From positions 1 to 59,085 of the forward strand of contig CACXUA010000003.1 in the NCBI GenBank assembly GCA_902770725.1: DNA of 59,085 nucleotides, given 5' to 3'. How positions within the stretch are numbered: the stretch's first letter is position 1; every line of letters starts with the position of its first letter. A model generated the notes under the pieces. The model was not told the DNA's origin. It ran no database searches and saw only the letters and a list, made by a program, of their open reading frames with translations. Source of the DNA: an uncultured Bacteroidales bacterium (GTDB taxonomy: Bacteria > Bacteroidota > Bacteroidia > Bacteroidales > Bacteroidaceae). Positions 7,303-53,206 of the stretch are shown here, piece by piece. The position numbers and the translations under genes were made by a program.

Positions 7303-7390
7303 ACATGGCGTGCCAAGTTGGCAAACATGGCACGTCGAATCGACAAACTCGGCACGTCGAATTGGCAAACATGGCGTGCCGCGTTTTTAA
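7303..7390 (+). repeat. Four-unit 22-nt repeat element (GGCRYGYC word)
   Basis: Four abutting 22-nt units start at 7303, 7325, 7347 and 7369. The first 12 nt of each resembles ACATGGCRYGYC; the remaining 10 nt vary (AAGTTGGCAA, GAATCGACAA, GAATTGGCAA, then a degenerate end). It belongs to the same family as the elements at 39308, 45741 and 53119. It lies between a terminator and the promoter of the next gene. There are no spacers, so this is not a CRISPR. Confidence 0.9.
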
Positions 7391-7408
7391 CATTCCCTAG
7401 CTTCGTGT

Positions 7409-7439
7409 TTGGAGATTACACGGAAAAGTTATACTTTTG
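7409..7439 (+). promoter_or_regulatory. Promoter for the HExxH membrane protein
   Basis: TTG at 7409-7411, 20 nt spacer, TACTTTTG at 7432-7439. This box overlaps the first possible ATG of the downstream frame (7437), so that start cannot be used from this promoter. Confidence 0.7.
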
Positions 7440-7457
7440 CATCGGAAAGCAATGGAA

Positions 7458-7787
7458 ATGAAAGGCAAGCAACACAAAATATACTTGGTCAAGCGCCTTC
7501 TGCTGGGGAAAGACTTCCTGGCCATCTGCCTGTTTGGCTTCATCTTATCCGTCAGGCCGCTCGACAAAGAGGAACTCAACCACGAGCTCATCCATGCGGC
7601 TCAACAACGGGAACTGCTCTACTTGCCCTTCTTCGTCTGGTACGGCATCGAGTGGCTAGTCCTACTCCTGAAATACAGAGACCGCATGGAAGCCTATCGC
7701 CACATTCGCTTCGAGCAGGAAGCCTACCGCCATCAGCACGACCTCACATACCTCGAGCACCGGAAGCACTATCACTATTTGAGGTAA
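7458..7787 (+). CDS. Small HExxH-containing membrane protein
   Basis: 109 residues. A hydrophobic helix (FLAICLFGFILSV) is followed by NHELIHAAQ, a perfect HExxH zinc-protease motif. Then comes a second hydrophobic stretch (LPFFVWYGIEWLVLLL) and RFEQEAYRHQ, whose glutamates could supply a third ligand. This arrangement suggests a minimal membrane metalloprotease or a zinc-binding relic of one. Activity is unproven. The frame opens at 7437, but that ATG sits in the promoter's -7 box, so I prefer 7458 (7452 is also possible). The gene converges on the GH5-GH43 gene, with 11 nt between the stop codons and no visible terminator. Confidence 0.7.
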   Translation: MKGKQHKIYLVKRLLLGKDFLAICLFGFILSVRPLDKEELNHELIHAAQQRELLYLPFFVWYGIEWLVLLLKYRDRMEAYRHIRFEQEAYRHQHDLTYLEHRKHYHYLR

Positions 7788-7798
7788 CGGAAATCACC

Positions 7799-10549
7799 CT
7801 ATTGGGTCGAGAAGCAGTCGAAGTCGGCATAGCCGCCTTGTTGCTTTGTGGCATAACAGAAGATGCCGAAGCGAGAGCCGACAAAGACGGTGAGGTTGAA
7901 CGACTGCTGCGTCTCGCCGCCAAAACGTTCCCATGTCTTGCCGTCAAGGGAATAGAAGAAATACGCCTTGTTGTCGCCATAGCGTATGGCAGCACGAAGA
8001 TAGATGATGCCCTTCTTTGGCTTGATGAACTGCGTCTTCTCTGCTGCTTCGAAACCTCGGCCGGCATTACGGACCTTATCTTGCTTCCACATCAACTGAT
8101 AGCTTTTCTTGCCTGTCTTCTCCACACAAATCTGAGCGTAGGGGTCTTGGAAGATGCAAATGCCTGCACGGTCGCCTTCCTTGAGCTTGCTTACGTCGAG
8201 GCGAACGGTGGCTGTTGAAGCACTGTCGGGATCGGCAAAGATGCGCTGAGTCAACGTGCCTTGAGCCTGATGAAGGTCTTCTGTGATGCCTGTCGTCTTC
8301 AGTCGCAACCAACCCGGACGCTCCTCGAGGCTCCAAGCGCCAGGCACAGGATTGTGATTCCATTGCCACTGCATGCCCAAAGTCTTCTGGCTGAAGTCGT
8401 CGCTGGTGGGCAGGGTATTCTGAGTTTTCGGAGTACTCAGATTACTCGGACCCTCTATGCTTTCAACAAAGCTGACGGGAGGCCTTGTGCCGCTTGCCAC
8501 GATGGGCCAGCCGTCTTTCCAAGTGACGGGAAGCAGGTTGGGGAAGCGACCAAGGGCTCCCAGGTCTTCCTGCATCACGGTCCACCACCTGCCGCCGATG
8601 TCCTCGACGAGGGCTCCCTGATGGATGGTGTTGGGCTTGCGGTCGTACCACTTCTCAACGAGCACTCGCTCCTCGTAAGGCCCGAAGATATTCTTCGAGC
8701 GGAAGACTGTCTGCCCGCTTGGCCAGCCGCCATAAGTGGCATAGATATAGTAGTAGTCGCCTATCCTATAGAGGTGGCAGCCCTCGAGCCCGCTGCCTTC
8801 GCGAACCACGACCTCTTGCTCGCGAAGGAAGTTGAAGTCCTCGTCAAGCTCACACATCTGGAGATGATTGATGCCGCAGACGATATAGACCTTGCCGCCA
8901 TCGAAGAGCATGCCCGGGTCGTAGTAGTTGCGCGAGAGTCGCTGCACCGTCCATTCGCCCTCGGGGTCTGTCGCAGAGAGCAGCCATGCTCGGTGGTCGT
9001 TGCCATTGATGAGGAGGTAGAACTTGCCGTCGTGCCACTTGATGGACGATGCCCACATGCCTCTTGCATAGGCATTCTTGCCATCGCGAAGGTTGTAGTG
9101 GTCGTCGTCGAGCAGCGACTTCAAGGGTTGGGCACAGTACTCCCAATTGACGAGGTCCTTGGACTTCAGGATTGTGGCTCCAGGAAAGTGGAACATTGTG
9201 GTGCTGACCATGTAGTAGGTCGTGCCCACACGAATCACGTCAGGGTCAGGGAAGTCAGCCCGCACAATCGGATTCGTGAACGTTCCCTCTTCACCTTTCA
9301 ACCTTTTAACCTTTTCACCTTTCCACGTTTTGTACCACTGCCAGCAGGCTCCTGAGCAGGCTTCGGGATTCCCGTCGAAGGAAGGCACAGGATGCAAGGG
9401 GTCCTTCATCATCTTATCGAGGTCGAGGTAGTCGTGCGGGTGCGTTAAGGTCATCGAGATGTTGCCATAGTGGTCGAGCACAGCCTTGTAGCATACGCCC
9501 CACTTCGAGGTGCTGGCCGTCGCCCAAGTGCCCAAGTTCCTATAAATAGAGTCACCCCATTCGTTGACCTTATCAAACTCGCGAGGCTCCTTGATAGGGC
9601 TCCAATCGACCTCGGACACGAAGATGGGATGCGTCTCTACGACAGGCACCTGTTTCTTGAACTGCCGGATGAAGTCCTGCTTGCTCTTCTCTATGTCAGC
9701 GTCGCGGTCCATCTTCTTGTCGTCACAACCGTACCAGCCGGGATAGACATGCACGGCATAACCGATGTTCTCGCCTTCGATGGGATGGACAGCATAGTCA
9801 GCATAGCTCGACTGGAAGCCTGTGCCAGGCACCCAGATGATGCCCATGAAGCCATTGGCTCGGATGACATCGACGATGGGCTGGAAGTAGTCGTGCAGAG
9901 CCTTCGGGTCGTTCTCGCCCTCACGGTTCTTGATGTTGATGGGCTCGTTGGCAAGTTCGATGGATATCAGCCCAGGGTACTTGAGGACAGAGTCGTTTCT
10001 CGATACGATGTCCCAGACCTCCATCAGGTATTTCTGATAGTAATCGCCCACCTTGAGGTTGAAGGGACACACGCCTGGCGGCCGCATCACGACGTACTGC
10101 CCATGACAGAGTGCCTTCATTGCCAAAGGAATATAAAGCCTCTGCATGTAGAGCTTGAGACGTTCGGGATTGAAGTGGCTGATGTCTGCCTCGCCTCTTG
10201 CTCCCTGTCCCTCGCCCTTTGCTACGGGATAGAGATAGTCCTTGTCGTTGGTCCAGACGGGATCGAGATGCAGACGGAAGATGTCGCAGTTGGCTATCTC
10301 GAGGCTTGTCAGCATCTTCTCGAAGTAATCGAGGCAACGATTGAGTCCCTCGTCGTCGTAGCTCCAGCCCCACCTGCCGCCGTTGAACCAGGCATTGGGC
10401 GTATCCATCACGCCATGCAGCACAACATGATTGCCCTTGTCGTCCACCAGCCAACGCCCATCGACATGAATAGGCGGCATACTCTCCACTTGTGCCTGGG
10501 CCATCAAGGCTGCCAGACACACATATAATAATAATGTAAGTTTCTTCAT
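7799..10549 (-). CDS. Secreted GH5-GH43 bifunctional glycoside hydrolase
   Basis: 916 residues with a signal peptide (MKKLTLLLYVCLAALMAQAQ). Residues about 25-400 are a GH5-like barrel with acid/base Glu202 in ELANEP and nucleophile Glu313 in FVSEVDW. Residues about 420-720 are a GH43 propeller with base Asp432 (RADFPDPD) and acid Glu589 (SGLEGCHLY). The last about 190 residues are the beta-sandwich that follows many GH43 xylosidases/arabinofuranosidases. The fusion suggests combined endo- and exo-attack on plant xylan or a similar hemicellulose, consistent with a gut or rumen Prevotella; the substrate is inferred. The ATG overlaps the TGA of the upstream fRMsr gene (ATGA), so translation is probably coupled. 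A longer open frame upstream is only the shadow of that gene. Confidence 0.9.
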   Translation of the reverse strand: MKKLTLLLYVCLAALMAQAQVESMPPIHVDGRWLVDDKGNHVVLHGVMDTPNAWFNGGRWGWSYDDEGLNRCLDYFEKMLTSLEIANCDIFRLHLDPVWTNDKDYLYPVAKGEGQGARGEADISHFNPERLKLYMQRLYIPLAMKALCHGQYVVMRPPGVCPFNLKVGDYYQKYLMEVWDIVSRNDSVLKYPGLISIELANEPINIKNREGENDPKALHDYFQPIVDVIRANGFMGIIWVPGTGFQSSYADYAVHPIEGENIGYAVHVYPGWYGCDDKKMDRDADIEKSKQDFIRQFKKQVPVVETHPIFVSEVDWSPIKEPREFDKVNEWGDSIYRNLGTWATASTSKWGVCYKAVLDHYGNISMTLTHPHDYLDLDKMMKDPLHPVPSFDGNPEACSGACWQWYKTWKGEKVKRLKGEEGTFTNPIVRADFPDPDVIRVGTTYYMVSTTMFHFPGATILKSKDLVNWEYCAQPLKSLLDDDHYNLRDGKNAYARGMWASSIKWHDGKFYLLINGNDHRAWLLSATDPEGEWTVQRLSRNYYDPGMLFDGGKVYIVCGINHLQMCELDEDFNFLREQEVVVREGSGLEGCHLYRIGDYYYIYATYGGWPSGQTVFRSKNIFGPYEERVLVEKWYDRKPNTIHQGALVEDIGGRWWTVMQEDLGALGRFPNLLPVTWKDGWPIVASGTRPPVSFVESIEGPSNLSTPKTQNTLPTSDDFSQKTLGMQWQWNHNPVPGAWSLEERPGWLRLKTTGITEDLHQAQGTLTQRIFADPDSASTATVRLDVSKLKEGDRAGICIFQDPYAQICVEKTGKKSYQLMWKQDKVRNAGRGFEAAEKTQFIKPKKGIIYLRAAIRYGDNKAYFFYSLDGKTWERFGGETQQSFNLTVFVGSRFGIFCYATKQQGGYADFDCFSTQ

Positions 10550-11016
10550 GGTAACATCTTTACTATTTGCTCCAGGTAGCGGCGGTCGGTCTGGTCGAAG
10601 GTGCCAAGTTGGGCGCTGTCGATGTCGAGGACGGCGATGACCTCTCCTTCCTTGAAGATGGGGACTACGATTTCGCTTCTTGAAGCCGACGAGCAGGCGA
10701 TGTGGCCTGGGAACTGATCGACGTCGGGCACGACCTGTGTCTGTGCCTCTGCCCATGCTGTGCCACACACTCCCCTACCCTTCTTTATTCTTGTGCAAGC
10801 CATCGGACCTTGGAAGGGACCGAGCACCAGCTTTTCGCCCTCGACACGATAGAAGCCTGTCCACCAGAAGCCGAAGGTCTCGTGAAGCATTGCCGCCACG
10901 TTAGCCATGTTGGCAATGAGGTCGGGCTCGTCCTCTACGACTGCCTTTATCTGCGGCAAGAGGGCTTCGTAACGCTCTTGCTTCGTCTCGCCACTGATGA
11001 TTAACTGCTCTGACAT
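10546..11016 (-). CDS. msrC: Free methionine-(R)-sulfoxide reductase (GAF domain)
   Basis: 156 residues forming a single GAF domain. The cysteines expected for fRMsr are present: one in ACTRIKKGRGVC (two cysteines) and one in HIACSSASRSE. The conserved ending VLDIDSAQLGTFDQTD is also there. The enzyme reduces free methionine-R-sulfoxide in the cytoplasm, with thioredoxin as the usual partner. Its stop codon overlaps the start of the GH5-GH43 gene by 4 nt, a pairing with no obvious metabolic link. Confidence 0.88.
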   Translation of the reverse strand: MSEQLIISGETKQERYEALLPQIKAVVEDEPDLIANMANVAAMLHETFGFWWTGFYRVEGEKLVLGPFQGPMACTRIKKGRGVCGTAWAEAQTQVVPDVDQFPGHIACSSASRSEIVVPIFKEGEVIAVLDIDSAQLGTFDQTDRRYLEQIVKMLP

Positions 11017-11041
11017 AACTTGTTTGTTTAAGGTACTCGCT

Positions 11042-11066
11042 CCCCCTAAAGGGGGCTGGGGGGTCC
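11042..11066. repeat. CCCCCTAAAGGGGG palindromic repeat
   Basis: A 14-nt palindrome followed by CTGGGGGGTC. The same element occurs in the opposite orientation at 47169-47190 in the division cluster. I know of similar short palindromes at gene ends in Bacteroidota. Here it sits just after the stop of the rep gene. Confidence 0.6.
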
Positions 11067-11071
11067 TGAAG

Positions 11072-12568
11072 TTATACGTCCTGGAAGATATAGGTCAGCT
11101 TCTTGTCGGCTCCGAAGGCGCTGTAGAAGTAGCTGATGATTTCGCTGATGTGCTCCTCCCATTGCTCGGAGACGAACTTGTTGGGCACGGACACGAAGAC
11201 GTTCTTGTCGCGGACGGCCCAGAGGCAGCAGCAGGTCATGTACTGGTTGTAGAACTGCTCGCCCAGACGCTCCTTGGCCTTCTCCATCCAGAGGTTCCAT
11301 TTCTCGAGATAGATGGGCTGAACGAACGGACGGTCAGGCTCTTCGTCCTTCACCTCGACTGCCTCGGCGAACTCTGGCTCCTTCGGTTTCTGCTGCTCCT
11401 TGAGCCAGCGATAGAGCACCTCGGTGACGTAAGCGTGCACATTGTCTGGCTGTTTGTCCTCGACGAGCTTGTCGATGCGTTCCAACTCGGGCTTGAGGTC
11501 GAGTCCGTCGTAGATGAGGTCCTCCAGCCTGGCCCACTCGTTTGGCTGCAGCTGGTACTTCGTGATGAGCTTGGCTCGCATCTTGCCCAGGAAACTCTCG
11601 TGCTGCTGAGCCTGCCCCATCTTGCCTTCGATGATGGTGAAGCGGATGCTGTCTGGGTCGCCACGACTGATGCCGTGAGGATAGACGGGCTCGTACTCGA
11701 AGCAGAACTCCACCTTGCCCTCGTCGGAGAGCTTTCGCATCTCCTTCAACACGGGGTCGAGCACGTCGCGATGGAAGGCGCCGTACTTGACATAACGGTT
11801 CTCGACGATGCGCTTGTGGTCCTTGCTGAACGTGAGCACGCCGAAGAACTCCTTCAGGTCGATATAGTTGACGGTGCAACTGCCTATCCTGCGCCAAGCG
11901 CTCAGGTAGATGTAGAGACGCGGCGTGCGCGGACTGCGACAGAGCTGGGTGATGCCTTTCAGGTGACGCGTGTAGCCCTTGCGGAGGTTCAGAATCTCAC
12001 GGGCACTCTCGTCCACCATGTCTATCTTGATGACGCCCTTCCTGCGCTGTCCTCCCTTGTAGGCCACCTTCTCGCCGGCAGCATTCAGTTCGGCCGTCGG
12101 GAACTCTATCTTGTGGAAGATGTTCTGCTTCACATTATATTCTACACGCTCGTACTCGTCGTAACGCTTGTAGGACATGTCCACCTTCAGCAGAGCGTCA
12201 CAAGCGGCCTCCAGCTCGCCGTACTTCTTCGGACTGATGCCGAGCTCCTTCAGCGGTATCTCGAAGTGGAGCAGGTTGCCCGTCAGGTCCTCGGGCTTGA
12301 ACAGGAACGTCGATTCGCCCATGCTGAGCTGTTCGCGGATGCGATCCTGCAACTGAGAGATGATGGCAATCATCAGGTTGGTCTGCACCAGCGAGAAGTT
12401 GCCACGTATCTGCGTGTAGCTCACCGGATTAAGGATGAAATCCAGATCGCGATTGTTGGCTATCGTCTGCACAAGCTCGTTGCTTTGGCTCACCATAGCC
12501 AGTCCTTTTTTCTTTGCCATTTCGTCTTCGTCTAAGAATTCGTCTGCAAAATTAGGCCATTCTAACAT
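11072..12568 (-). CDS. Rep_3-family replication initiator with a DnaA domain I-like C-terminus
   Basis: 498 residues. Residues about 25-340 match the Rep_3/RepB double winged-helix initiators of theta plasmids: ELVQTIANNRDLDF near the start, ALLKVDMSYKRY, then GYTRHLKGITQLCRSPRTPR, YIYLSAWRR and the second winged helix (DLKEFFGVLTFSKDHKR, VLDPVLKEMRKLSD). After an acidic linker (EPEFAEAVEVKDEEPDRP), the last about 80 residues resemble DnaA domain I: LW…RLGEQFYNQYM…VFVSVPNKFVSEQWEEHI…FGAD..L.Y. Such a protein should bind iterons and open an origin, and the extra domain could recruit the helicase. I chose the ATG at 12568; a TTG lies 9 nt upstream. It diverges from parA across 1.85 kb of repeat-rich DNA. 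Confidence 0.88.
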   Translation of the reverse strand: MLEWPNFADEFLDEDEMAKKKGLAMVSQSNELVQTIANNRDLDFILNPVSYTQIRGNFSLVQTNLMIAIISQLQDRIREQLSMGESTFLFKPEDLTGNLLHFEIPLKELGISPKKYGELEAACDALLKVDMSYKRYDEYERVEYNVKQNIFHKIEFPTAELNAAGEKVAYKGGQRRKGVIKIDMVDESAREILNLRKGYTRHLKGITQLCRSPRTPRLYIYLSAWRRIGSCTVNYIDLKEFFGVLTFSKDHKRIVENRYVKYGAFHRDVLDPVLKEMRKLSDEGKVEFCFEYEPVYPHGISRGDPDSIRFTIIEGKMGQAQQHESFLGKMRAKLITKYQLQPNEWARLEDLIYDGLDLKPELERIDKLVEDKQPDNVHAYVTEVLYRWLKEQQKPKEPEFAEAVEVKDEEPDRPFVQPIYLEKWNLWMEKAKERLGEQFYNQYMTCCCLWAVRDKNVFVSVPNKFVSEQWEEHISEIISYFYSAFGADKKLTYIFQDV

Positions 12569-12900
12569 AATATCCAAATTTTTAAGTATAAATTTTTAAA
12601 ATTATAGCAATAAAGTGTTCAAATTATTCGCACCTTGCTGTTAGTTAACTCTCGCACCGTTGTTTATCTGCCTATTAACACCAGTATGTTCGCTTGATTA
12701 TTACTCGGCTCTATCCAACATCACGCACCGAAGTGTTCCACCATACACTCAGCGAAATCTTCCCCTACTCCATGACCGAACTCTTCCAACACTCTCCGAC
12801 ATCCATCTTCCCAGCATTCAGCACCAGACTCTACCCTATCACCTGCACCAGGATGTACCCCAACCCTTACACCCAAATGTGCCGAACTCCCCGTACCAAA

Positions 12901-13011
12901 TGTTTCCGAAGCATGAACCAAAGTGTTTCTGAAGCCCAACCTAAATGTTTCTGAAACCCAACCAAAGTGTGTAGGAAATCTGACCTGAATGTATCAGAAA
13001 CTTGAACCACA
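12901..13011 (+). repeat. 22-nt tandem repeat, five units (TGTTTCTGAA word)
   Basis: Units begin at 12901, 12924, 12946, 12968 and 12990 (one 23-nt unit, then 22). Each has the form TGTNTNNGAA followed by about 12 nt with the word AACCAAA or similar. The divergence is high. Spurious reading frames across it encode repetitive peptides. Confidence 0.8.
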
Positions 13012-13056
13012 ACATGGCTGCAATCCCCACCAGCAGCCACCCAGCCAAACCCACCA

Positions 13057-13140
13057 TAGAGGAACCGGCATCGCCCTATAGAGAATTCGCCAACGCCCTA
13101 TAGAGGAACCGGCATCGCCCTATAGTGAATTATCAGGTGT
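13057..13140 (+). repeat. 22-nt tandem repeat, three units plus a partial (GCCCTATAGAG word)
   Basis: Units begin at 13057, 13079 and 13101, with a partial at 13123. Units 1 and 3 are identical, and unit 2 differs in the middle. All share TAGAGRA at the start and CGCCCTA at the end. Confidence 0.85.
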
Positions 13141-13147
13141 ATTAGGA

Positions 13148-13259
13148 TTCATGAGCAGAAGCAACAGCATTCATAAACAGAAGCACGACTCCTCACAGGC
13201 AAAAGCACTACCTCCCATGAACAAAACCACCACCGTTCATGAGCAAAAGCACAAGTGTT
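13148..13259 (+). repeat. About 22-nt degenerate repeat, five units (TTCATGARCARAAGCA word)
   Basis: Successive copies of TTCATRARCARAAGCAC separated by about 22 nt, from 13148 to 13259. They follow the previous block after a short gap, but with a new word. Confidence 0.7.
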
Positions 13260-13610: not shown

Positions 13611-13794
13611 ACCCCTACCCTACCACTCTAATACACAGACAGTTGCACCAGTCTATAATAAATATATCAATATAATTTGATAAACGATACTCCAAAGAAA
13701 AATTCTTTCTTATAATATATGAATATCTTATATTATATATAAGGTGTCGTAACCCCTTGATTATTAGTGAACTGCTCCCCCACTGGTGCGAAAC

Positions 13795-13882
13795 TTCGGA
13801 ACACATGGTGCGAATGTTCGGAACATAAGGTGCTGCTTTTATGTACATAAGGTGCGGCCATCTATAACATCTCTATCTTAAC
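13795..13882 (+). repeat. Four-unit 22-nt element of iteron-like GGTGCGAA sites
   Basis: GGTGC starts at 13795, 13817, 13839 and 13861, exactly 22 nt (about two helical turns) apart. Units 1 and 2 carry GGTGCGAANNTTCGGAAC; units 3 and 4 are degenerate after GGTGC. A further site, GGTGCGGACTTTAGGAAGAT, follows at 13911-13930. The reverse complement of this word dominates the cluster downstream of parAB. Confidence 0.85.
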
Positions 13883-14415: not shown

Positions 14416-15303
14416 ATGTCACAAGTTATTTCTCTTTTACACGATAAGGGTGGTTGCGCTAAGACTACTACCTGTGTCAATCTGGGCTTTGCCCTCTGGT
14501 TGCTTGGCAAGAAGGTGCTGCTTGTGGATACTGATCCGCAGTGCAATCTGACGGATACGGTCGATAAAACAGTGCATCTCGAGGCGGATAGCACCATCTA
14601 CGAGTGGCTCCACGACGCGCAGCCCGGCGAGTCGCTTCCGCTCCCTATCTATACGCGCTACGATGGGCTGGACTATGTTCCTGGCAGCCACAGCATGAGC
14701 AACATCAATGCGGAACTGCAGCTCATGTATAACCGCGAACGCCGGCTGGCTGATTTCCTGAACATGGTTGACCCTGAAACTGGGGTGAAGATACGTGATT
14801 CGTACGACTATGTCTTCATCGACTGTGCCCCTGGTGGCGAGACATTGATGAACACTAACGCACTGGTTGCCAGCGACTTCGTGATAGTTCCGACCGAAGC
14901 TGGCATCTACAGTTTGCAGGGCTTGCCGCGTCTGCTCGACTATATAAACAAGGTCCACACTCAGCTTAACTGCCCTGTTTCCATCATGGGCTATCTCTTG
15001 GTGCGTTGGAATCGCAATCGTAATATCAGTCGCGAGGTGAAGGAGTACTACAGCGACATTGAAGCCGTCAAGGCTCCGCTGTTCCCTGTTAGCATTCGTG
15101 AGAGCGTAAGATGCACAGAATCAGTTGCTTCCGAGATGTCTCTCTTCGAGTACGCCAGCACAAGTCCCGTTGCTGATGACTATATGCGCGTGGCCGAATA
15201 CATGATTGGTCGCAAGGCCCGTCCCAAGGGCTGGACGCCAGCTCGCTGGGGCCAGATAGCTAATGCAGCTTACGACCGCTTCATGAAGGAGCGAAGTATG
15301 TAA
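14416..15303 (+). CDS. parA: ParA-family partition ATPase
   Basis: 295 residues. It has the deviant Walker A box KGGCAKTTT at residues 11-19 with the signature lysine at 11, an A' motif VDTDPQCN, and Walker B in YVFIDCAPGG. The usual ParA core follows (VPTEAGIYSLQGLPRLLDYI). There is no N-terminal helix-turn-helix, so it is the small type (Ib-like), which relies on a small DNA-binding partner. It would segregate the replicon by moving on the nucleoid. The first gene after the candidate origin, it lies upstream of the small ParB-like gene and is flanked on both sides by the same iteron-like words. Confidence 0.9.
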   Translation: MSQVISLLHDKGGCAKTTTCVNLGFALWLLGKKVLLVDTDPQCNLTDTVDKTVHLEADSTIYEWLHDAQPGESLPLPIYTRYDGLDYVPGSHSMSNINAELQLMYNRERRLADFLNMVDPETGVKIRDSYDYVFIDCAPGGETLMNTNALVASDFVIVPTEAGIYSLQGLPRLLDYINKVHTQLNCPVSIMGYLLVRWNRNRNISREVKEYYSDIEAVKAPLFPVSIRESVRCTESVASEMSLFEYASTSPVADDYMRVAEYMIGRKARPKGWTPARWGQIANAAYDRFMKERSM

Positions 15304-16108: not shown

Positions 16109-16196
16109 ATCGACGTGCCGATTTCATCAAATCGACGTGCCTCTCCAAGCAAATCGACGTGTCGATTTCGTCAATTCGACGTGCCAAATTGTCAGT
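16109..16196 (+). repeat. Four-unit 22-nt element (ATCGACGTGCC word)
   Basis: Units start at 16109, 16131, 16153 and 16175. The first 11 nt are ATCGACGTGCC with at most two changes; the second half varies and ends in TCAA or GCAA in three of four units. Confidence 0.9.
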
Positions 16197-16381
16197 CTGA
16201 AAATCAGGGCGTTGCAAGATAATGCTGAGAGTTTGACGAAAACGAAGGATTTTGTTAAGAATTTTGTAGTATTAGGAGAAATGTCATGATTGAGGTGCAC
16301 CTTTTGCCTCGCTTTTTTCAGTTTTGGAAACGTAGTTTTTGGGCTCTGATTACTCCAAGTAGGGCGAAGTGTTGACTCACT

Positions 16382-16469
16382 TCGAGAAATATCTTGACCG
16401 TCATCGAGAAATACCTTGACTAGCGTCGAGAAAAATCTTGAATTGCATCAAACAAAATCTTCCCAAAGT
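16382..16469 (+). repeat. Four-unit 22-nt element (TCGAGAAANATCTTGA word)
   Basis: Units start at 16382, 16404, 16426 and 16448, exactly 22 nt apart. Three carry TCGAGAAANANCTTGA; the fourth is degenerate (TCAAACAAAATCTT) and runs into the first iteron-like site AAAGTTCGCACC. Confidence 0.88.
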
Positions 16470-21169: not shown

Positions 21170-21294
21170 CAAAGTTACGAATAAGTGAGAGAAATACAAA
21201 AAGAAAAGCGTATTTTCTTTTGTATTTCCGAACGAGAGTAAGTTCGACGAATGTCAAAGTTACGAATAAGTGAGAGAAATACAAAAAGAAAAGC
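21170..21294 (-). promoter_or_regulatory. Tandemly duplicated promoter for the acid phosphatase gene
   Basis: A 40-nt segment at 21170-21209 is repeated perfectly at 21255-21294, an 85-nt offset. On the minus strand each copy contains TTG, a 19-nt spacer and TAACTTTG (boxes at 21170-21177/21197-21199 and 21255-21262/21282-21284). The DNA between the copies is also similar, and a degenerate third copy begins near 21340. Confidence 0.8.
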
Positions 21295-21389
21295 CAAGTT
21301 TTTCCTTTTGTTTTTCCGAGCGGAAGTAAATTCGACGACAGTCAAAGTACAAAATAGAGGGTTAAATGCAAAGAAAAACGAAGATTTCT

Positions 21390-21939: not shown

Positions 21940-22049
21940 GCGTGGATAAACCAAAAATGTAACGTGGATAAATTCAAAACTTCACGTGGATAAATGTCAA
22001 ACTTCACGTGGATAAATTCAAAACTTCACGTGCCATGTTTGGCATCTTC
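21940..22049 (+). repeat. Five-unit 22-nt element with CGTGGATAA cores
   Basis: CGTGGATAA occurs at 21941, 21963, 21985 and 22007, exactly 22 nt apart. A fifth unit at 22029 has CGTGCCATG. The core differs from the reverse complement of the DnaA box (TGTGGATAA) at one position. It lies between the terminator of the DUF4332 gene and the 3' end of the 1536-residue protein gene. Confidence 0.88.
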
Positions 22050-36709: not shown

Positions 36710-36781
36710 AAGAAAAAAGCATTCTTTGCATAAGGCACCAGCAAGGGTTTCACAATTCCCTATGGAAGGATTGCAAACTTA

Positions 36782-36847
36782 ACGTGTGTAGTTGGCAAAG
36801 TTAACGTGTGAAGTTGGCGAACCTAACGTGTGAAGTTTGAAGACTTG
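36782..36847 (+). repeat. 22-nt repeat element, three units (ACGTGTGAAGTTGG word)
   Basis: Units start at 36782, 36804 and 36826, exactly 22 nt apart. The shared first half is ACGTGTGWAGTT. The element lies in the 200-nt gap between the GH97 and EEP genes. Confidence 0.85.
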
Positions 36848-36857
36848 ACTGCCTGCC

Positions 36858-37799
36858 CTATTTCACGGCAATCACCTTCTTTGCGTTCTTCATGATATAG
36901 AGGCCCTTAGGCAAAGTTCTGCTCGAGGATTTCCCTGTTGCCACACGCTTCCCGCTGAGGTCGTAAATCTCCTCATCCTGCACAGCTTCGAGGTCTGCAG
37001 AGGGCGACTGTATGCCGGTAGTGTATGGCTTGATTGTTATTACCACCAGGACGGGTCGATGGTCGGAGGCATTCGGTTCGTTGATGACCTGACGGCTCCT
37101 GATGGATTTTATGACGTGGCCGTAAGTGGCGATGTAGTCGATAATCTTCTTCGGACTTGAGGCCGGGAAGGTGTAATTAGCAGGGCTTGCTGTAAGGTTG
37201 TTCAGGAATTGGAACTTCCTCTTCATCGTTGTGATGAGTTTCGAAGAGGGTTCGTCGTTCCAGTCGCCGCAGATGAAGAACGGCTTTTCCCATCGCGCGA
37301 TTTCCTCCAGTATGATGTCCAACGAGGTGAGGCGATTCTCCTCTTCAAGGGCGAGATGGGTGCAGGCAAAGACATATTCCTGGAACTCGCAGACGAGGAG
37401 TGTTCTTTTCTCACTTCCAGGCAAAGGAATGTTGCGGACAGACAGCGGCTCTTCCTTGCTGAGGATGGCCACTCCGTATTTCCCTTTAGTAAGGGGAATG
37501 GCGGGACCAAAGGTGGCATACATTCCGAGCTTGCTGGCCAGGACGGCAGCTTCGTTGATGTAGCCAGAACGCTTCACGCAACTGTCCACTTCCTGCAGTC
37601 CCACGATGTCTGGCTGAGCAGCTCCGATGACTGCAGCTTGCCTGTCCATGTTGACCACGTCGTCCGACCCTGCACCATGCTGAATGTTGTAGGTCATGAT
37701 GCGAAGTGTGTCGAGTCCATCGTCCTGCGAATAAGCCTTCGGGGTCGAGGACAGGATGCCGAGGATAAGACTAAGGAGGAAAATAAGATAGCTTCTCAT
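36858..37799 (-). CDS. Secreted endonuclease/exonuclease/phosphatase family protein
   Basis: 313 residues with a signal peptide (…TPKAYSQ). EEP-fold motifs are present in order: TYNIQHG, GLQEVDS, GDWNDEP and SDHRPVLV. These hold the acidic, Asn and His residues of the DNase I-like active site. Family members cut DNA or phosphodiesters or act as sphingomyelinase-like enzymes; the substrate here is unknown. The last about 45 residues (YDLSGKRVATG…KGLYIMKNAKKVIAV) form a type IX-like tail, so the protein is probably exported to the surface. Confidence 0.85.
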   Translation of the reverse strand: MRSYLIFLLSLILGILSSTPKAYSQDDGLDTLRIMTYNIQHGAGSDDVVNMDRQAAVIGAAQPDIVGLQEVDSCVKRSGYINEAAVLASKLGMYATFGPAIPLTKGKYGVAILSKEEPLSVRNIPLPGSEKRTLLVCEFQEYVFACTHLALEEENRLTSLDIILEEIARWEKPFFICGDWNDEPSSKLITTMKRKFQFLNNLTASPANYTFPASSPKKIIDYIATYGHVIKSIRSRQVINEPNASDHRPVLVVITIKPYTTGIQSPSADLEAVQDEEIYDLSGKRVATGKSSSRTLPKGLYIMKNAKKVIAVK

Positions 37800-38700: not shown

Positions 38701-39936
38701 ATGTTCACCACTTACACGCTTCCACAGGGACTACGCATCGTCTGTGCTCCAGGCCGGACGGATGCAGTCTATCTCGGTCTCGCAGTCGATGCCGGCACAC
38801 GCGACGAACTGCCTCAGGAGAGCGGCATGGCGCATTTCACCGAGCACATGTCGTTCAAGGGAACACAGCGACGTTCGGCACGTCAGGTCATCTCCTGCAT
38901 GGAAAGTGTGGGCGGAGAACTCAATGCCTTCACGGGCAAGGAGGAGACGGTCTATTACTGCACTTGCCTGCAAGGGCATGTCGGCCGAGCCATCGACCTG
39001 CTCCTCGACATAACCCTCTCCAGCACCTATCCCGACGAAGAGATGGCGCACGAGGTGGAAGTCGTCATCGACGAGATAGAGAGCTACAGGGATCAGCCTT
39101 CGGAACTCATCTACGACGAGTTCGAGAGCCTCCTCTTCCCCGAGCATCCGCTGGGCCGCAACATCTTGGGCGACGCCGACACGCTCCGAACCTTCCATTC
39201 CGCCGACATGCAACAGTTCGCGCGAAGGCTTTACCGGCCCGACCGCATGGTGCTCTACGTCCTGGGCAACGTAAAGCCAGAACAGGTGCTCCGTGCGGCA
39301 GAGAAAAACGCGGCACGCCATCTTTGCGAATGCGGCACGCCATCTTTGTCAACGCGACACACCGAGTTTGCCAACGCGGCACGCCGAGATAACCACATCA
39401 TCCGCAGGAAAGACACACACCAGGCGCATGTCGTCGTCGGAGCACAAGCCTTCGCAGCCTCCGACCCCCGCCACCTGAACCTCTATTTCCTCAGCAACAT
39501 GCTGGGCGGACCAGCCATGTCGAGCCGTCTGAACCTCGCCCTGCGCGAACGGAACGGCCTTGTATATACCGTGGAAAGCAACAGCGTGGCCTATACCGAC
39601 ACAGGCTTCTGGTCGGTCTATTACGGTTGTGACGCAAAAGACCGCGCCCGTTGCCGCCGACTCGTCCTTCGGGAACTGGACAAACTCACGCAAAACCCCA
39701 TGTCCCAGCGCACCCTCGATGCCGCACGCCGGCAACTGAAAGGCCAGATAGGCATCTCCTACGACAACTTCGAGAACGTAGCCATCGGCATGGCGAAACG
39801 TTTTCTTCATTACGGCAAGACGCTCACAAAGGAACAACTCTTCGAGCGCCTCGACGCCCTCACACCCGACGACTTGCTCCAGACAGCACAGCACGTCTTC
39901 TCCCCCGACAGACTTTTGACTCTCGAATACGTCTGA
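38701..39936 (+). CDS. M16 family zinc peptidase (processing-peptidase-like)
   Basis: 411 residues, the usual length of single-chain bacterial M16B proteins. The inverted zinc motif AHFTEHMSF (HxxEH) and the downstream Glu in EVVIDEIES are present, with the GGELNAFTGKE motif between. The C-terminal half has the MSSRLNLALRERNGLVYTV substrate-binding signature (R/Y pair). Unusually, residues about 203-232 are encoded by a four-unit 22-nt repeat element (39308-39395), giving low-complexity sequence (NAARHLCECGTPSL…) at the hinge between the two halves. No signal peptide is seen, so it is probably cytoplasmic. It has no promoter of its own that I can see, and the ribosomal terminator is close upstream. 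Confidence 0.88.
   Translation: MFTTYTLPQGLRIVCAPGRTDAVYLGLAVDAGTRDELPQESGMAHFTEHMSFKGTQRRSARQVISCMESVGGELNAFTGKEETVYYCTCLQGHVGRAIDLLLDITLSSTYPDEEMAHEVEVVIDEIESYRDQPSELIYDEFESLLFPEHPLGRNILGDADTLRTFHSADMQQFARRLYRPDRMVLYVLGNVKPEQVLRAAEKNAARHLCECGTPSLSTRHTEFANAARRDNHIIRRKDTHQAHVVVGAQAFAASDPRHLNLYFLSNMLGGPAMSSRLNLALRERNGLVYTVESNSVAYTDTGFWSVYYGCDAKDRARCRRLVLRELDKLTQNPMSQRTLDAARRQLKGQIGISYDNFENVAIGMAKRFLHYGKTLTKEQLFERLDALTPDDLLQTAQHVFSPDRLLTLEYV
39308..39395 (+). repeat. Four-unit 22-nt element inside the M16 peptidase gene
   Basis: Units start at 39308, 39330, 39352 and 39374, with cores ACGCGGCACGCC, ATGCGGCACGCC, ACGCGACACACC and ACGCGGCACGCC and 10-nt variable halves. The frame stays open through it, though 88 nt is not a multiple of three. 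Confidence 0.92.
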
Positions 39937-45740: not shown

Positions 45741-45828
45741 ACGCGGCACGCCATCTTTGCCAACGCGGCACGCCGAAATGACAAACATGGCACGCCGAAA
45801 TGCTCAACGCGGCACGCCATCTTTACAG
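45741..45828 (+). repeat. Four-unit 22-nt element between murE and mraY
   Basis: Units start at 45741, 45763, 45785 and 45807. The core is ACRYGGCACGCC in all four; the other 10 nt are either ATCTTTRCMR-like or GAAATGMYMA-like. A partial unit (ACATAGC) follows at 45829. It lies inside the transcribed division cluster. Confidence 0.93.
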
Positions 45829-47164: not shown

Positions 47165-47168
47165 AAGA

Positions 47169-47190: not shown

Positions 47191-47260
47191 AACAAATGGT
47201 AAATGGAACTCCGCGCATTAAAAGCGCGCCTTGTTTCTAAAGAATACAAGAAATGGTTAA

Positions 47261-48610: not shown

Positions 48611-48623
48611 GGAAAATGGAAAG

Positions 48624-49853
48624 ATGAAGCTAAACAATATAAAGAATAAGACCTTGATACATGGCGACCTGGGCGTCTGGGCTGTGTTCCTCATCCTATG
48701 TGCCATCTCACTCATCGAGGTTTATAGTGCCAGTTCACGCATGACCTTTGCCTCTGGCGCATATTGGGATCCCATTATGCAGCACGGCTCCTTCATGCTG
48801 ATGGGCATCTTCATCGCCTGGCTCGTGCATTTCATCCCGTGCAACTACTTCAAGTTGTTCTGCACCATAGGCATGTTCCTGTCGCTCTTCCTGCTGATTG
48901 CCGTGCTTGCCATCGGTCAGAAGACGAACGACGCAGGCCGCTGGATTTCGATAGGCTTCATAAGGTTCCAGCCAAGTGAACTGGCGAAGTTGAGTCTCGT
49001 AGGCTTCAGCTGCTTCATCCTCTCCTCTCTTCGCGACGAGAAGGGGGCTAGTCCGATGGGATTCAAGATAGTGGCATTGACGGCCTTCATGACAATTCTC
49101 CTCATCTTCACCGAGAATGCATCTACTGCCTTCATCATAGCCATTGTGATGTTCGGCATATGCTTCTATGCACAGATACGCAAGAAGATACTCATCGGAG
49201 CGCTTCTTCTGGGCATGCTCGGCATAGGCAGTGTCTTTGGCATCGCCTATTCCATACCCGAGAAAACACTTACCGAATGGCAGATGTCTGAGGGGCCTTT
49301 GCATCGCGTGCCTACTTGGATACATCGCATCACAGACAAGCAGGAGCGTCCTGCCGACCCTCGTGACTTCAAGCCTCAGGAGAATCCACAAAAGGCATAC
49401 GCCAAGGTGGCCATCGCAACGAGCAACATCATCGGTCGCGGCCCAGGGAACAGTCGTCAGCGTGACTTCATCCCGCAGGCTTTCTCCGACTTCATCTATG
49501 CCATCATCATAGAGGAACTTGGCTTCTTCGGAGCTTTCCTGGTGCTTGCCCTCTACTTGATATTGATGTATCGCTCCATGCGTATCGCCCAGAAGTGCAA
49601 GGCCCTCTTCCCTTCCTACCTGGTAATGGGACTGGCCCTAATGATAGTAGTCCAGGCGATGATGAATATGGCTGTGGCTGTAGGCGCATTCCCCGTCACG
49701 GGACAACCTCTGCCGCTTGTCAGCCGAGGCGGTACGAGTCTCTTCATCACCTGTACCTACATAGGCATGATACTGAGTGTAAGCCATACGGCAAAGCGTA
49801 AACCGCAATACGAAAACAAACAAATAGAAGCTCCCGAAGTAGCGGAAGCATAA
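48624..49853 (+). CDS. ftsW: Septal peptidoglycan glycosyltransferase FtsW
   Basis: 409 residues of the SEDS family with about ten membrane helices. Motifs are FIRFQPSELAKLSLVGF, IVQAMMNMAVAVGAFPVTGQ (20) and PLPLVSRGGTS. FtsW polymerises septal glycan strands together with FtsI. It has an acidic C-terminal tail. Confidence 0.95.
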   Translation: MKLNNIKNKTLIHGDLGVWAVFLILCAISLIEVYSASSRMTFASGAYWDPIMQHGSFMLMGIFIAWLVHFIPCNYFKLFCTIGMFLSLFLLIAVLAIGQKTNDAGRWISIGFIRFQPSELAKLSLVGFSCFILSSLRDEKGASPMGFKIVALTAFMTILLIFTENASTAFIIAIVMFGICFYAQIRKKILIGALLLGMLGIGSVFGIAYSIPEKTLTEWQMSEGPLHRVPTWIHRITDKQERPADPRDFKPQENPQKAYAKVAIATSNIIGRGPGNSRQRDFIPQAFSDFIYAIIIEELGFFGAFLVLALYLILMYRSMRIAQKCKALFPSYLVMGLALMIVVQAMMNMAVAVGAFPVTGQPLPLVSRGGTSLFITCTYIGMILSVSHTAKRKPQYENKQIEAPEVAEA

Positions 49854-49868
49854 TATATATATTATATA

Positions 49869-50990
49869 ATGTATATGGAAGGATTAAGAGTCATAATAAG
49901 TGGTGGCGGTACAGGCGGACACATATTCCCTGCCGTGAGCATTGCCAATGCCTTGCGTGAGATAAATCCCGACGTGGAGATTCTCTTCGTGGGCGCAGAA
50001 GGCAGAATGGAGATGCAACGCGTGCCTGCTGCCGGATATAAGATAATCGGATTGCCCGTCCGTGGCTTGCTTCGTCCTTTATGGAAGCCAGGCAACATCA
50101 GCATCCTGATGGACTTTTTGAAGAGCAAGCGTATGGTGAAGCAGACGCTGCGAGAGTTCAAGCCACAAGTGGCAGTGGGTGTAGGCGGCTATGCCAGTTC
50201 GGCAACCCTCAATGCTGCCTACGAGCTTGGCATCCCTTGCCTTATTCAGGAGCAGAACAGCTTTGCGGGACTCACCAATAAGACGCTTGCGAAGAAGGCC
50301 AGGAAGATATGCGTGGCATACGAAGGCATGGAGCGTTTCTTCCCAAAGGATCGCATCCTGCTCACAGGCAACCCAGTGCGTCAGAGCCTGCTTAACGACT
50401 CATTGACGCGCGAGGAGTGTGCCGCAGCCTTTGGTTTGAACCCAGCGAAGCCAACGGTATTGCTCATTGGAGGAAGCCTTGGCGCTCGCACCTTGAACGA
50501 GAGTGTCATAAGGAACCTCTCCCGCATCGCTGCTTCGTCGGTGCAGTTCATCTGGCAGACAGGCAGCTACTACAAGAAGGAGATAGAGCAGATGCTTGAC
50601 GTGAAGGGCAAGCCAAGCAATCTTGTCGTGACGGACTTCATCAGCAGGATGGATCAGGCATATTGTCTGGCAGACCTTGTCATCAGCCGCGCCGGTGCTG
50701 GCAGCATCAGCGAGCTGTGCCTGTTGGGTAAGCCAAGCATCTTGGTTCCCAGTCCCAATGTGGCAGAAGACCATCAAACACACAATGCGATGGCGCTTGT
50801 GGGCAAGGAGGCAGCATTGCTCGTCCGCGATGCAGATGCTCCTGAGCAGCTCATACCGCTTGCTTTGGAGACGGTCGTCGATGAAGAGAAGCTCAAGAAG
50901 CTCGGAGGGAATGCAGCTGCGATGGCATTGCGCGACTCGGCACGCATTATTGCCGAAGAGGTTATAAAACTTGCAGAGGAGAAGAAGTGA
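49869..50990 (+). CDS. murG: UDP-GlcNAc-lipid I N-acetylglucosaminyltransferase
   Basis: 373 residues (49875 is a second possible start). Family motifs are SGGGTGGHIFPA, GVGGYAS, EQNSFAGLTNK, GGSLGAR and SRAGAGSISE. It makes lipid II at the inner membrane. Its TGA overlaps the murC ATG by one base (TGATG). Confidence 0.95.
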   Translation: MYMEGLRVIISGGGTGGHIFPAVSIANALREINPDVEILFVGAEGRMEMQRVPAAGYKIIGLPVRGLLRPLWKPGNISILMDFLKSKRMVKQTLREFKPQVAVGVGGYASSATLNAAYELGIPCLIQEQNSFAGLTNKTLAKKARKICVAYEGMERFFPKDRILLTGNPVRQSLLNDSLTREECAAAFGLNPAKPTVLLIGGSLGARTLNESVIRNLSRIAASSVQFIWQTGSYYKKEIEQMLDVKGKPSNLVVTDFISRMDQAYCLADLVISRAGAGSISELCLLGKPSILVPSPNVAEDHQTHNAMALVGKEAALLVRDADAPEQLIPLALETVVDEEKLKKLGGNAAAMALRDSARIIAEEVIKLAEEKK

Positions 50991-52363
50991 TGGAAGAGAT
51001 AAAGGCAGTATATTTTGTAGGCATCGGCGGCATTGGCATGAGTGCCATAGCACGCTACTTCCTGAGTCGTGGCTTGGTCGTTGCCGGTTACGACAGGACT
51101 CCGAGCGACCTCACGAAGGCACTTCAGGAGGAAGGGGCGTTGGTTCATTATGAGGACAATGTGGAGTTCATCCCTGCTCCGTGTCGTGACAGGGAGAGTA
51201 CGTTGGTAGTCTATACGCCAGCCATCCCTGCAGAACATACGGAGCTGACTTTCTTCCGCAACAATGGCTTCGAGATACAGAAGCGTGCCCAAGTGCTCGG
51301 CACCTTGACGCGCTCGCTCAAAGGACTCTGTGTGGCTGGCACACATGGCAAGACGACGACATCGAGCATGGCTGCCCATCTGCTTCACCAGAGTCATGTG
51401 GACTGCAACGCTTTCCTGGGCGGCATCACGAAGAACTACGGCACGAACTACATCTTGAGCCAGAAGAGCCCTTATGTCGTCATCGAGGCTGATGAGTTCG
51501 ACCGCTCCTTCCACTGGCTGACCCCCTTTGCCAGTGTCATCACGGCGACGGATGCCGACCACCTCGACATCTATGGCACCGAGGAGGCTTACCTGGAGAG
51601 TTTCAGCAAGTACAGTAGCCTGATACTTCCCGGCGGCTACCTCATCCTGCATACGGGGCTGAAGATGAAGCCAGCCGTGCAGGAAGGCGTGACGGTCTTT
51701 ACCTATAGCCGCGAGGATGGCGACTTCCATGCTGAGAATGTCCGTATTGGTGATGGCCGCATTACCTTCGACCTCGTTTCGCCGCTTGGCAATATCCAGG
51801 GCATCGAACTTGGTGTGCCTGTCAGCGTCAACATAGAGAACGGCATTGCTGCCATGGCTTTGGCACAGATAGCCGGTGCTACGGCAGAGGAGATTCGCCG
51901 AGGCATGCTGTCCTTCAGCGGTGTGGATCGTCGCTTTGACTTCCACGTCAAGACAGACAAGATGGCCTACCTGAGCGACTATGCCCATCATCCCGAGGAG
52001 ATTCGCCGCAGCCTGGAGAGCCTGCGCGAGCTCTATCAGGGCCGTCGGATCAAGGCAATCTTCCAGCCGCACCTCTATACCCGTACACGCGACTTCTACA
52101 AGGACTTTGCCGCAGCCTTGTCGCTGCTCGACGATGTCTGCATCGTGGATATCTATCCGGCCCGCGAGGCACCTATACCTGGCGTAACGAGCCAGCTCAT
52201 CTACGACAACCTGAAGCCCGGCATCAAGCGAGAGATGTGCAGCAAGGACGGCATCCTGGATGTGGTGCGTCAAGGCGGCTTCGACGTGCTTGTCACGCTT
52301 GGGGCAGGCGACATCGAGGACTATGTTCAACAGATAACCGATATACTTCGACCCTTATCATGA
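50990..52363 (+). CDS. murC: UDP-N-acetylmuramate-L-alanine ligase
   Basis: 457 residues: FVGIGGIGMSAIARYFL, the ATP loop AGTHGKTTTSSM, and VIEADEFDRSF. It catalyses the first stem-peptide step. The start is the ATG that overlaps the murG stop. Its own stop overlaps the ftsQ start (ATGA), so murG-murC-ftsQ are tightly coupled. Confidence 0.95.
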   Translation: MEEIKAVYFVGIGGIGMSAIARYFLSRGLVVAGYDRTPSDLTKALQEEGALVHYEDNVEFIPAPCRDRESTLVVYTPAIPAEHTELTFFRNNGFEIQKRAQVLGTLTRSLKGLCVAGTHGKTTTSSMAAHLLHQSHVDCNAFLGGITKNYGTNYILSQKSPYVVIEADEFDRSFHWLTPFASVITATDADHLDIYGTEEAYLESFSKYSSLILPGGYLILHTGLKMKPAVQEGVTVFTYSREDGDFHAENVRIGDGRITFDLVSPLGNIQGIELGVPVSVNIENGIAAMALAQIAGATAEEIRRGMLSFSGVDRRFDFHVKTDKMAYLSDYAHHPEEIRRSLESLRELYQGRRIKAIFQPHLYTRTRDFYKDFAAALSLLDDVCIVDIYPAREAPIPGVTSQLIYDNLKPGIKREMCSKDGILDVVRQGGFDVLVTLGAGDIEDYVQQITDILRPLS

Positions 52364-53100
52364 AGACGGCAATCAAGATATTTCTGCTTCTGGCAGTCGT
52401 GGGCTACCTTGTGGTCGCTATCTGGAAGTTTGGCGGCCAGGCAGAGGACAGGACTTGCGAGGGCATTCGTGTCGAGATAATCGACAGCATCCCCGATGGC
52501 TTCATCACGGACGAGTATGTGCGTTCCATCCTGACGCGCAACAAGATATCGCCCGAGGGCATGAAGATAAGCGAAGTCAGCCTGGAGCAGATAGAGCAGC
52601 TGATGCTCGAGGAGTCGCACATCGAGCGTGCCTCCTGCTATTACGATGCGGCAGGCAGGCTCTGCATCAAGGTTGTACCGCAGCAGCCCATACTGCACGT
52701 CATCAGTCAGAAGGGCGAGGACTACTACCTGTCCAGCACTGGCCTGTCGATGTCAACCGGCACCTTCAACGTAGATCTGTGCGTTGCGACCGGCAACATC
52801 ACGAAGAAGTTTGCTGCCGAACACCTCCTGGAGTTCGCACGATATATCCACGACGACCTCTTCTGGAGCGAACAGATAGAGCAGATACACGTCGTCAGCC
52901 CCGAGGAGATAGAGCTGTATCCACGCGTCGGCCAGCATGTCATCGAACTGGGCAGCGTAAATGGATTCCAAGAGAAACTAGGCCGCCTGCGCACCTTCTA
53001 CCGTGAAGGACTGGAGCGCGTGGGTTGGAACAAATACAGTAAGATAAGTCTGGCATACGATGGCCAAGTCGTCTGCACAAAAGCCGACAACAGGAAATGA
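52360..53100 (+). CDS. ftsQ: Cell division protein FtsQ
   Basis: 246 residues. One N-terminal membrane helix (IKIFLLLAVVGYLVVAIW) is followed by a periplasmic POTRA-like and beta domain (ISEVSLEQIEQLMLEESHIE, ELYPRVGQHVIELGS). The position between murC and ftsA confirms the call. The start is the ATG overlapping the murC stop; an upstream open frame is a murC shadow. Confidence 0.9.
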   Translation: MKTAIKIFLLLAVVGYLVVAIWKFGGQAEDRTCEGIRVEIIDSIPDGFITDEYVRSILTRNKISPEGMKISEVSLEQIEQLMLEESHIERASCYYDAAGRLCIKVVPQQPILHVISQKGEDYYLSSTGLSMSTGTFNVDLCVATGNITKKFAAEHLLEFARYIHDDLFWSEQIEQIHVVSPEEIELYPRVGQHVIELGSVNGFQEKLGRLRTFYREGLERVGWNKYSKISLAYDGQVVCTKADNRK

Positions 53101-53118
53101 AGAATATCGGCTCAGGAA

Positions 53119-53206
53119 ACGCGGCACGCCATCTTTCGAAACGTGGCACGCCGAGATGACCAACATGGCACGCCATCTTTGCCAACGCGGCACGCCATCT
53201 TGAATA
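53119..53206 (+). repeat. Four-unit 22-nt element between ftsQ and ftsA
   Basis: Units start at 53119, 53141, 53163 and 53185. The core is ACRYGGCACGCC in all four, and the variable half is mostly ATCTTTSSMA or GAGATGACCA. Of the same family as those at 7303, 39308 and 45741. Confidence 0.93.

Follow-up and report, generated by a model that had tools for sequence, protein, structure and literature searches.

What kind of element repeats at exactly 22 nt in many places of a bacterial genome, and keeps that spacing while its sequence changes? The question is raised by a stretch of 59,085 nt (the window), which is contig C3 (CACXUA010000003.1) of the 2.26-Mb, 134-contig assembly of an uncultured Bacteroidales bacterium (GCA_902770725.1, here G000; completeness 80.6%), a genome whose nearest named records are rumen and gut metagenome-assembled genomes of Bacteroidaceae, Bacteroidales, Prevotellaceae and Paraprevotella. 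Short blocks of abutting 22-nt units occur along the window, each block with a characteristic unit sequence, or word. To account for these blocks, we propose, with a probability of roughly 0.45, that most are dispersed, mainly non-coding arrays that act at the level of DNA, in the manner of repetitive extragenic palindromic (REP) sequences and bacterial interspersed mosaic elements (BIMEs), that they are read by an oligomerising DNA-binding protein, and that their words are copied between loci.

The period itself is unequivocal. Twelve blocks of the window have a period of 22, against none or one for each other period from 5 to 59, the harmonic 44 (8 blocks) excepted. We extended the count with Tandem Repeats Finder (TRF) to 459 kb of G000, consisting of the window and 20 pieces of 20 kb from 20 other contigs, in which 62 of 166 rows have period 22 if overlapping rows are included (56 arrays without overlaps); three shuffled copies of the same 459 kb yielded 4 rows, none with period 22. 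The resulting density of 12.2 arrays per 100 kb extrapolates to about 270 arrays per genome. In stretches of 22 genomes of the genus, with period 44 counted as 22 and overlaps removed, period 22 accounts for 138 of 331 arrays, the runner-up being a period of 7 bp with 43; stretches of the division and cell wall (dcw) region were also taken from 21 genomes. The arrays of the dispersed kind in the window are the following.

7303..7390, forward strand: four units in the frame AAC-NNNN-CACG/CGTG-NNNN-GTT plus spacer, beyond a terminator-like hairpin (by eye).
16109..16196, forward strand: four units of dispersed type (ATCGACGTGCCGATTTCATCAA), adjoining a ParA module.
21940..22049, forward strand: five units (ACGTGGATAAAT...), the final one of ACGTGCCATGTTTGGC type.
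36773..36847, forward strand: three units plus part of a fourth (ACGTGTGAAGTTGGCAAACTTA), at 21 nt from where the reverse-strand open reading frame (ORF) 36858-37799 stops.
39308..39395, forward strand: four units within a gene, coding for the variable linker of an M16-type peptidase (ORF 38701-39936).
45741..45828, forward strand: dcw-operon array immediately 3' of the murE stop codon, ahead of mraY.
53119..53206, forward strand: dcw-operon array between ftsQ and ftsA.

Many of the words conform to a single frame, AAC-NNNN-CACG (or CGTG)-NNNN-GTT, to which a 4-nt spacer (such as TGCC or GGCA) is added, for a total of 22 nt, as in AACTTAA-CACG-TTAAGTT and AACATGG-CACG-CCATGTT; further words found in arrays are TTGCATCTACATGTACATGCAA, TTAAATATTCATGACCATTTAA, CGCCCTATAGGGG and CAAAGAGGTATACCTCTTTGCC. 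The frame is close to a palindrome, and the complementarity of the arms in their best phase averages 4.70/7, compared with 3.69/7 in column-permuted copies. Among the 225 centres of the 83 arrays with a mean dyad score of at least 4.5, 85 are CACG or CGTG and 18 are CATG (103 together). We defined a dyad centre as CACG, CGTG or CATG with at least 5/7 complementary arm pairs, and because these three motifs were picked post hoc, with the arrays already seen, it is the spacing between centres and not the motif that provides the test. In the 459 kb of G000, 52 pairs of dyad centres lie at 22 nt, 31 at 44 and 11 at 66, with no other distance from 12 to 110 nt reaching 3 and a shuffled mean of 0.0 at 22. 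The same pattern is found in 745 kb of 21 other genomes (45 pairs at 22 nt, 30 at 44 and 9 at 66), in which no further distance in the range of 12-70 nt reaches 3. A scan that admits any centre and demands 7/7 arm pairs, which is too strict, gives no distance with four pairs in G000, and 6 pairs at 11 nt and 4 at 22 nt in the other genomes. A genome-wide absence of any excess of period 22 had been named beforehand as the result that would overturn the observation; what the search returned, in the TRF rows, in the dyad spacing and across the genus, is a pronounced excess.

An earlier note on this window had described eleven blocks as a single family, seven of them with exactly four units, and had held that length and phase are constant while each locus has a core word of its own. 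Five of the four-unit blocks (7303, 16109, 39308, 45741 and 53119) are borne out, with mean pairwise identities between units of 14.2-16.0/22, as are the five units at 21940 and the three each at 36782 and 13057 (14.5-18.7/22). Four units do hold for several blocks of the window, but not as a rule. Over 130 arrays from the stretches of 22 genomes, without the origin-like region at 12.8-16.9 kb and with counts that degenerate end units make approximate, we find 2 units in 5 arrays, 2.5 in 11, 3 in 30, 3.5 in 24, 4 in 26, 4.5 in 19, 5 in 4, 5.5 in 9, 6 in 1 and 9 in 1. Hence, 99 of the 130 hold 3-4.5 units, with 16 below and 15 above, so that length is constant only in part, and the supposed excess of blocks with exactly four units is not borne out by this count in half-units. 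The core words are likewise only partly proper to their loci, since many fit the one degenerate near-palindromic frame. A word said to be shared by three distant loci is present as a tandem ACRYGGCACGCC pair at 45741 and 53119, whereas at 39308 two of the four units have it and the remaining two are variants; the pair has 20 matches in G000, in the window and elsewhere. The constancy of phase, by contrast, proves to be stronger than was claimed, as the same slots keep the lattice across species and words are shared genome-wide within a species.

To assess whether words belong to the slot or to the genome, we compared arrays by the sharing of 7-mers, with significance taken from 5000 label shuffles. 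Sharing within genomes is 0.144 (66 pairs), as against 0.044 between genomes (1260 pairs), a difference reached in 0 of the 5000 shuffles; for randomly chosen segments outside the arrays, from the same stretches, the values are 0.028 within and 0.021 between genomes. The array in the M16 linker shares 0.092 with the same slot elsewhere and 0.166 with the other slots of its own genome. These slots are widely occupied: an array stands in the M16 linker of 17 of 21 genomes when the threshold is permissive (all but G085, G027, G032 and G076), in the murE-mraY slot of 15 of 17 by eye (all but G032 and G076, and short in G058), and in the ftsQ-ftsA slot of 5 of the 8 genomes compared (empty in G032, G076 and G081); this last slot is empty also in G093. 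The sister genome G085 illustrates the exchange most clearly. Its 300-nt flanks are 98-99% identical to those of G000 at the murE-mraY and ftsQ-ftsA slots and 89-94% identical at the M16 slot, but the arrays over the three slots are only 64-69% identical (66-69% at the two slots with 98-99% flanks). At murE-mraY and ftsQ-ftsA, G085 and G000 differ in their words (CCCTATAGGGG and GGCACGCC, respectively) but share the AACGC frame.

Two further slots show the same behaviour. One, 3' of a stop codon, has arrays with different words in 8 of 22 genomes and in the query genome G027 (by eye). In another, 11 of 21 genomes (by eye) have similar end units around a phase-locked inner stretch of differing word, which is TACATGTA in 8, GTCGCGAC in 1 and CTCCT..AGGAG in 2, the latter with a TACATGTA third unit; in one genome the inner units number two, not three, G128 carries a related word further along, and absence is insecure in G050, G024, G076, G039 and G037, for which the alignment ends 130-170 nt short. 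For 31 TACATGTA elements, a number of which are orthologous, the dyad score of the flanks peaks at an offset of exactly 22 nt, with 3.16/7 compared with 1.2-2.4 for the remaining offsets from 14 to 40, as expected if the end units share the lattice. Between orthologous arrays we also observe symmetric swaps, such as TTAA/TTAA to TTCA/TGAA, and the loss or gain of one unit, so that the number of units changes in steps of 22.

With respect to genes, 55 of the 56 arrays in the G000 sample are not within any called ORF longer than 150 codons; the 56 include 8 from the origin-like region or its vicinity. In the 22 genomes, the origin-like region again left aside, 67 arrays stand between genes of the same direction, and 47 of these are closer to the upstream stop codon than to the next start (median distances of 46 and 117 nt, respectively). 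Placement within an ORF of at least 150 codons was recorded for 24 of 120 arrays; 14 of these are the M16 slot, and the remaining ten include possibly spurious ORFs. The product of ORF 38701-39936 is one that we take, from motifs, to be an M16-type peptidase, and the array at 39308 keeps the reading frame of its linker. In an alignment of 29 parsed rows (L034 was misparsed) the nearest relatives have the same linker length, and L040, L045, L047 and L052 have longer linkers. The linkers of the sister genomes G085 and G027 are of the same length and non-periodic by test, with AAAGAGGTAG recurring 66 nt apart (by eye). Downstream of the ftsQ-ftsA array, at 53210-53440, the ftsA frame looks broken near 53.33 kb in comparison with relatives, possibly through an assembly error.

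The rigid spacing together with the dyad symmetry points to an action at the level of DNA and to a lattice of protein with direct contacts between neighbours, and the sharing of words between unlinked loci suggests that copying between loci is needed. A DNA-binding protein would sit on each dyad as a dimer and touch the dimers on either side, about two helical turns away, and these contacts would rule out a spacing of 21 or 23 bp. A new word would start as a change in one half-site that is copied to the array's other half-sites by slippage or template switching, and would then be copied to the other arrays of the genome through ectopic gene conversion or a copying enzyme, with the old end units often staying in place. 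The copying or binding mechanism suspected earlier stands, and the data seem to need both. In a bolder form, which we put forward as speculative and on balance doubtful, the genome has a copying system that enters the palindromic word of the moment at many fixed slots along the rigid 22-bp lattice; as the word changes, presumably with its reader protein, the new one replaces the old in existing arrays without altering the spacing, so that each species acquires a DNA "dialect" of its own at conserved positions, even in frame within a gene.

Several observations weigh against our proposal. Symmetry is common but not universal, as only 59 of the 138 arrays exceed the column-permuted control at z > 2, and some arrays mix half-units of different words (AACTTAACGTGCCATCTTTGC), so that the arms need not match. 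CACG is on the sense strand somewhat more often than CGTG, an asymmetry not required of a symmetric site; the bias is larger when counted per unit in the more palindromic arrays (51 versus 13) and shrinks when counted per array (35 versus 21). A single sequence-specific protein is difficult to reconcile with words that change, and neither a binding protein nor a copying enzyme was identified in this analysis. Three arrays, 7303 (z -4.9), 21940 (z -2.3) and one TACATGTA array (z -6.2), fold better as RNA than shuffled sequences do. Beyond the genus, periods from 21 to 24 are all present and 22 is less exact: in 45 more distant Prevotella-like and other Bacteroidales loci, 22 nt is still the commonest (27 arrays), followed by 21 bp (17), 15 bp (12) and 24 bp (10). 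The arrays may thus extend beyond the genus with a looser period. The distant Prevotella-like loci L141, L142 and L143 carry 22-nt arrays, L141 and L143 in a similar arrangement with apparently different words.

What we see in close species are two slots with 98-99% identical flanks, different words and the same geometry. This implies one of two things: short blocks of DNA are overwritten throughout the genome by an unknown enzyme, or the many sites and the protein that binds them evolve together at great speed. The arrays therefore turn into a testable question how repeated non-coding sites stay uniform within a genome and yet change between species. At their density the arrays make up a large share of the intergenic DNA, and they are possible strain-level markers for rumen bacteria.

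The alternative that survives best, which we consider rather unlikely, is a selfish element, in which a dedicated, unrecognised transposase or reverse transcriptase copies palindromic cassettes of 66-88 bp into preferred slots and replaces the inner units, so that lattice and word are the element's own. The distribution of the TACATGTA pair pattern, with 145 matches in G027, 109 in G112 and 43 in G085 and none in 122 of 139 genomes, argues for recent spread. Near-identical inner cassettes between different flanks, empty sites, and 20-bp inverted ends (GTTGTTTG...CAAACAAC) in the G027 and G112 copies at one slot would all suit such an element; inverted ends occur in some TACATGTA copies, and AAGGCTTC stands on both sides of one G027 array. 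However, several of the changes are symmetric base-pair swaps and not cassette swaps, no general target duplication was noticed by eye, and no enzyme was found. In particular, the REP-associated tyrosine transposase (RAYT)/IS200 family (PF01797; Y1) is not detected in G000, of which the assembly is 80.6% complete, and of 139 genomes the 62 with PF01797 matches do not include G085. Five of the seven genomes with at least 10 TACATGTA matches do have a strong PF01797 match, but at the Y1 loci whose flanks were inspected (16 of 20) the palindromes are different ones, among them GCCCTGAAAGGGC (by eye). Of the 20 Y1 genes, 6 have a period-22 array within about 1.5 kb (in G027, G112, G087, G043, G001 and G064), in no case one with the TACATGTA word, and this proximity does not count as support because array density alone would give as many. 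RAYT as the mobiliser is therefore not supported, given that PF01797 was not detected in G000 or G085 and that the palindromes at the inspected RAYT flanks are different. The RAYT-like genes of relatives at L250, L251, L252 and L253, flanked by GCCCTGAAAGGGC and CCCAGGGC..GCCCTGGG palindromes, appear as a separate REP-like system of the genus.

A neutral mutational product, in which slippage and template switching at hairpins make tandem palindromes uniform and their place after genes reflects mere tolerance, is in our estimation improbable. Quasi-palindrome correction yields symmetric arm changes, of the kind observed here, and unit numbers that differ by one and permissive sites (3' intergenic DNA and a variable linker) fit such a process equally well. 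Mutation of this kind does not lead us to expect dyads spaced at exactly 22 with none at 21 or 23, words shared between unlinked loci of one genome, or the recurrence of the same slot with new words. A neutral minisatellite with independent words at each locus is at odds with the label shuffles and the random-segment control.

The window also contains a replication module, which raises the possibility that Rep proteins of plasmids or the chromosome bind the arrays, and that these serve Rep3-type initiators as sites or as iteron-like decoys; the iterons of such proteins likewise repeat every two helical turns. The region between 11072 and 16900, with a Rep3 initiator, iteron-like repeats, ParA and a small protein, looks like an origin. 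It comprises, apart from the array at 16109, the following features.

11072..12568, reverse strand: Rep3-family initiator (PF01051, family match).
12901..13010, forward strand: 22-nt tandem repeats of the Rep3 origin-like region, outside the dispersed frame.
13057..13122, forward strand: three-unit array of the word CCCTATAGAG, which is the dialect word of sister genome G085, in the origin-like region.
13784..13870, forward strand: GGTGCGAA iteron-like repeats at 22-nt spacing, near ParA.
14416..15303, forward strand: ParA-type ATPase.
16372..16469, forward strand: 22-nt repeats TTGACTAGCGTCGAGAAATATC of the origin-like region, with similar ones in the same module of G085.

The eleven blocks are a mixture, in which dispersed arrays stand beside five blocks (12901, 13057, 13795, 16109 and 16382) from the Rep3/ParA region at 11.1-16.9 kb. 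Unit identity is weaker in part of this group: 16382 reaches 14.0/22 with a weaker fourth unit, the five units at 12901 reach 11.9/22, and 13795, at 11.2/22 and with a fourth unit that shares little, is not a clean four-unit block in the phase first assigned to it. The initiator's own repeats are TTCGCACC/GGTGCGAA, and blocks 13057 and 16109 carry dispersed-type words. The Rep protein of G085 is 100% identical to that of G000, compared with 90% for the M16 protein, suggesting recent transfer or strong conservation, and the C-terminus of the initiator shows a weak match to the DnaA N-terminal domain (DnaA_N; E 0.0016, below the curated cut-off).

We regard binding by Rep as highly improbable. 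Besides the initiator and its 22-nt repeats in the window, it can draw on a 3.8 x 22 array (AATAAGGAGAAATTTTGGCTCG) on contig C84 of G000 (L268), which at 6.55 kb has the appearance of a plasmid with Rep3 and mobilisation genes, on GGTGCG iterons that nearly fit the dispersed frame (by eye), and on arrays of the genome's dialect word in the Rep3 regions of G085 and G093. Nevertheless, the chromosomal origin word TTCGCACC recurs in several species while the dispersed words change (by eye), and G032 and G076 carry Rep yet have few or no arrays in the sampled stretches. Neither of two arrays compared with PLSDB convincingly matched a plasmid (one weak match, of 82% to a Lactobacillus plasmid, had E 0.3), and scans of viral contigs for a phage source of the words found nothing. 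The dispersed arrays were accordingly rejected as Rep3 iterons on the difference between the words, the exceptions being 13057 and the Rep regions of G085 and G093.

Least probable of all are RNA hairpins that act at mRNA 3' ends as stabilisers or protein targets, an idea to which the position after stop codons and the three better-folding arrays lend something. Of the seven window blocks, however, five fold as shuffled sequences do, no Rfam family matches the arrays of the window or of four sampled stretches, and some arrays, 7303 among them, are situated past a terminator-like hairpin (by eye). The mismatched arm pairs of 57 arrays in sense orientation, 36 G-T (G-U in RNA) versus 41 A-C, have no wobble excess and hence no sign of selection for RNA pairing.

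The earlier note knew of no named family that fits, and this holds for RAYT/REP, local Rep3 iterons, Rfam families and RNA hairpins, none of which finds support; a literature search found no description of such arrays, and a clustered regularly interspaced short palindromic repeats (CRISPR) array does not fit, as the units abut without unique spacers. The closest parallel is REP/BIME with RAYT, whose intergenic, palindromic, many-copy character and genome-specific words are all found in the arrays. One study reports different REP classes at orthologous RAYT genes, with a possible partial replacement after an "orthoswitch" (PMC3686654). Unlike REPs, the arrays consist of direct units in a tandem lattice of exactly 22 bp, PF01797 was not detected in G000, and the RAYT-like genes of relatives carry their own, different palindromes. 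Porphyromonas gingivalis, of the same order, Bacteroidales, provides a second comparison. Its BrickBuilt miniature inverted-repeat transposable element is described as a 23-nt tandem repeat in intergenic elements with a leader, a tail and IS5-like terminal inverted repeats (PMC4596501). There, one 23-nt repeat is used, whereas here we find many words and have seen no comparable leader or tail. Iterons of Rep3 replicons are similar in having few direct repeats of about 22 bp, but the arrays are dispersed over the genome, are often dyad-symmetric and do not use the word of the resident Rep3. Rickettsia palindromic elements are tolerated in frame inside genes, as is the array in the M16 linker; here, however, there is one main case, in a slot of near-constant length with interchangeable words.

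The window also has other repeats. An 88-bp repeat in two copies at 21170-21348 is unrelated to the 22-nt units, and tandem repeats of 10/20/30 bp (AACCTAGGAA) lie at 57211-57283, just beyond the ORF at 57285.

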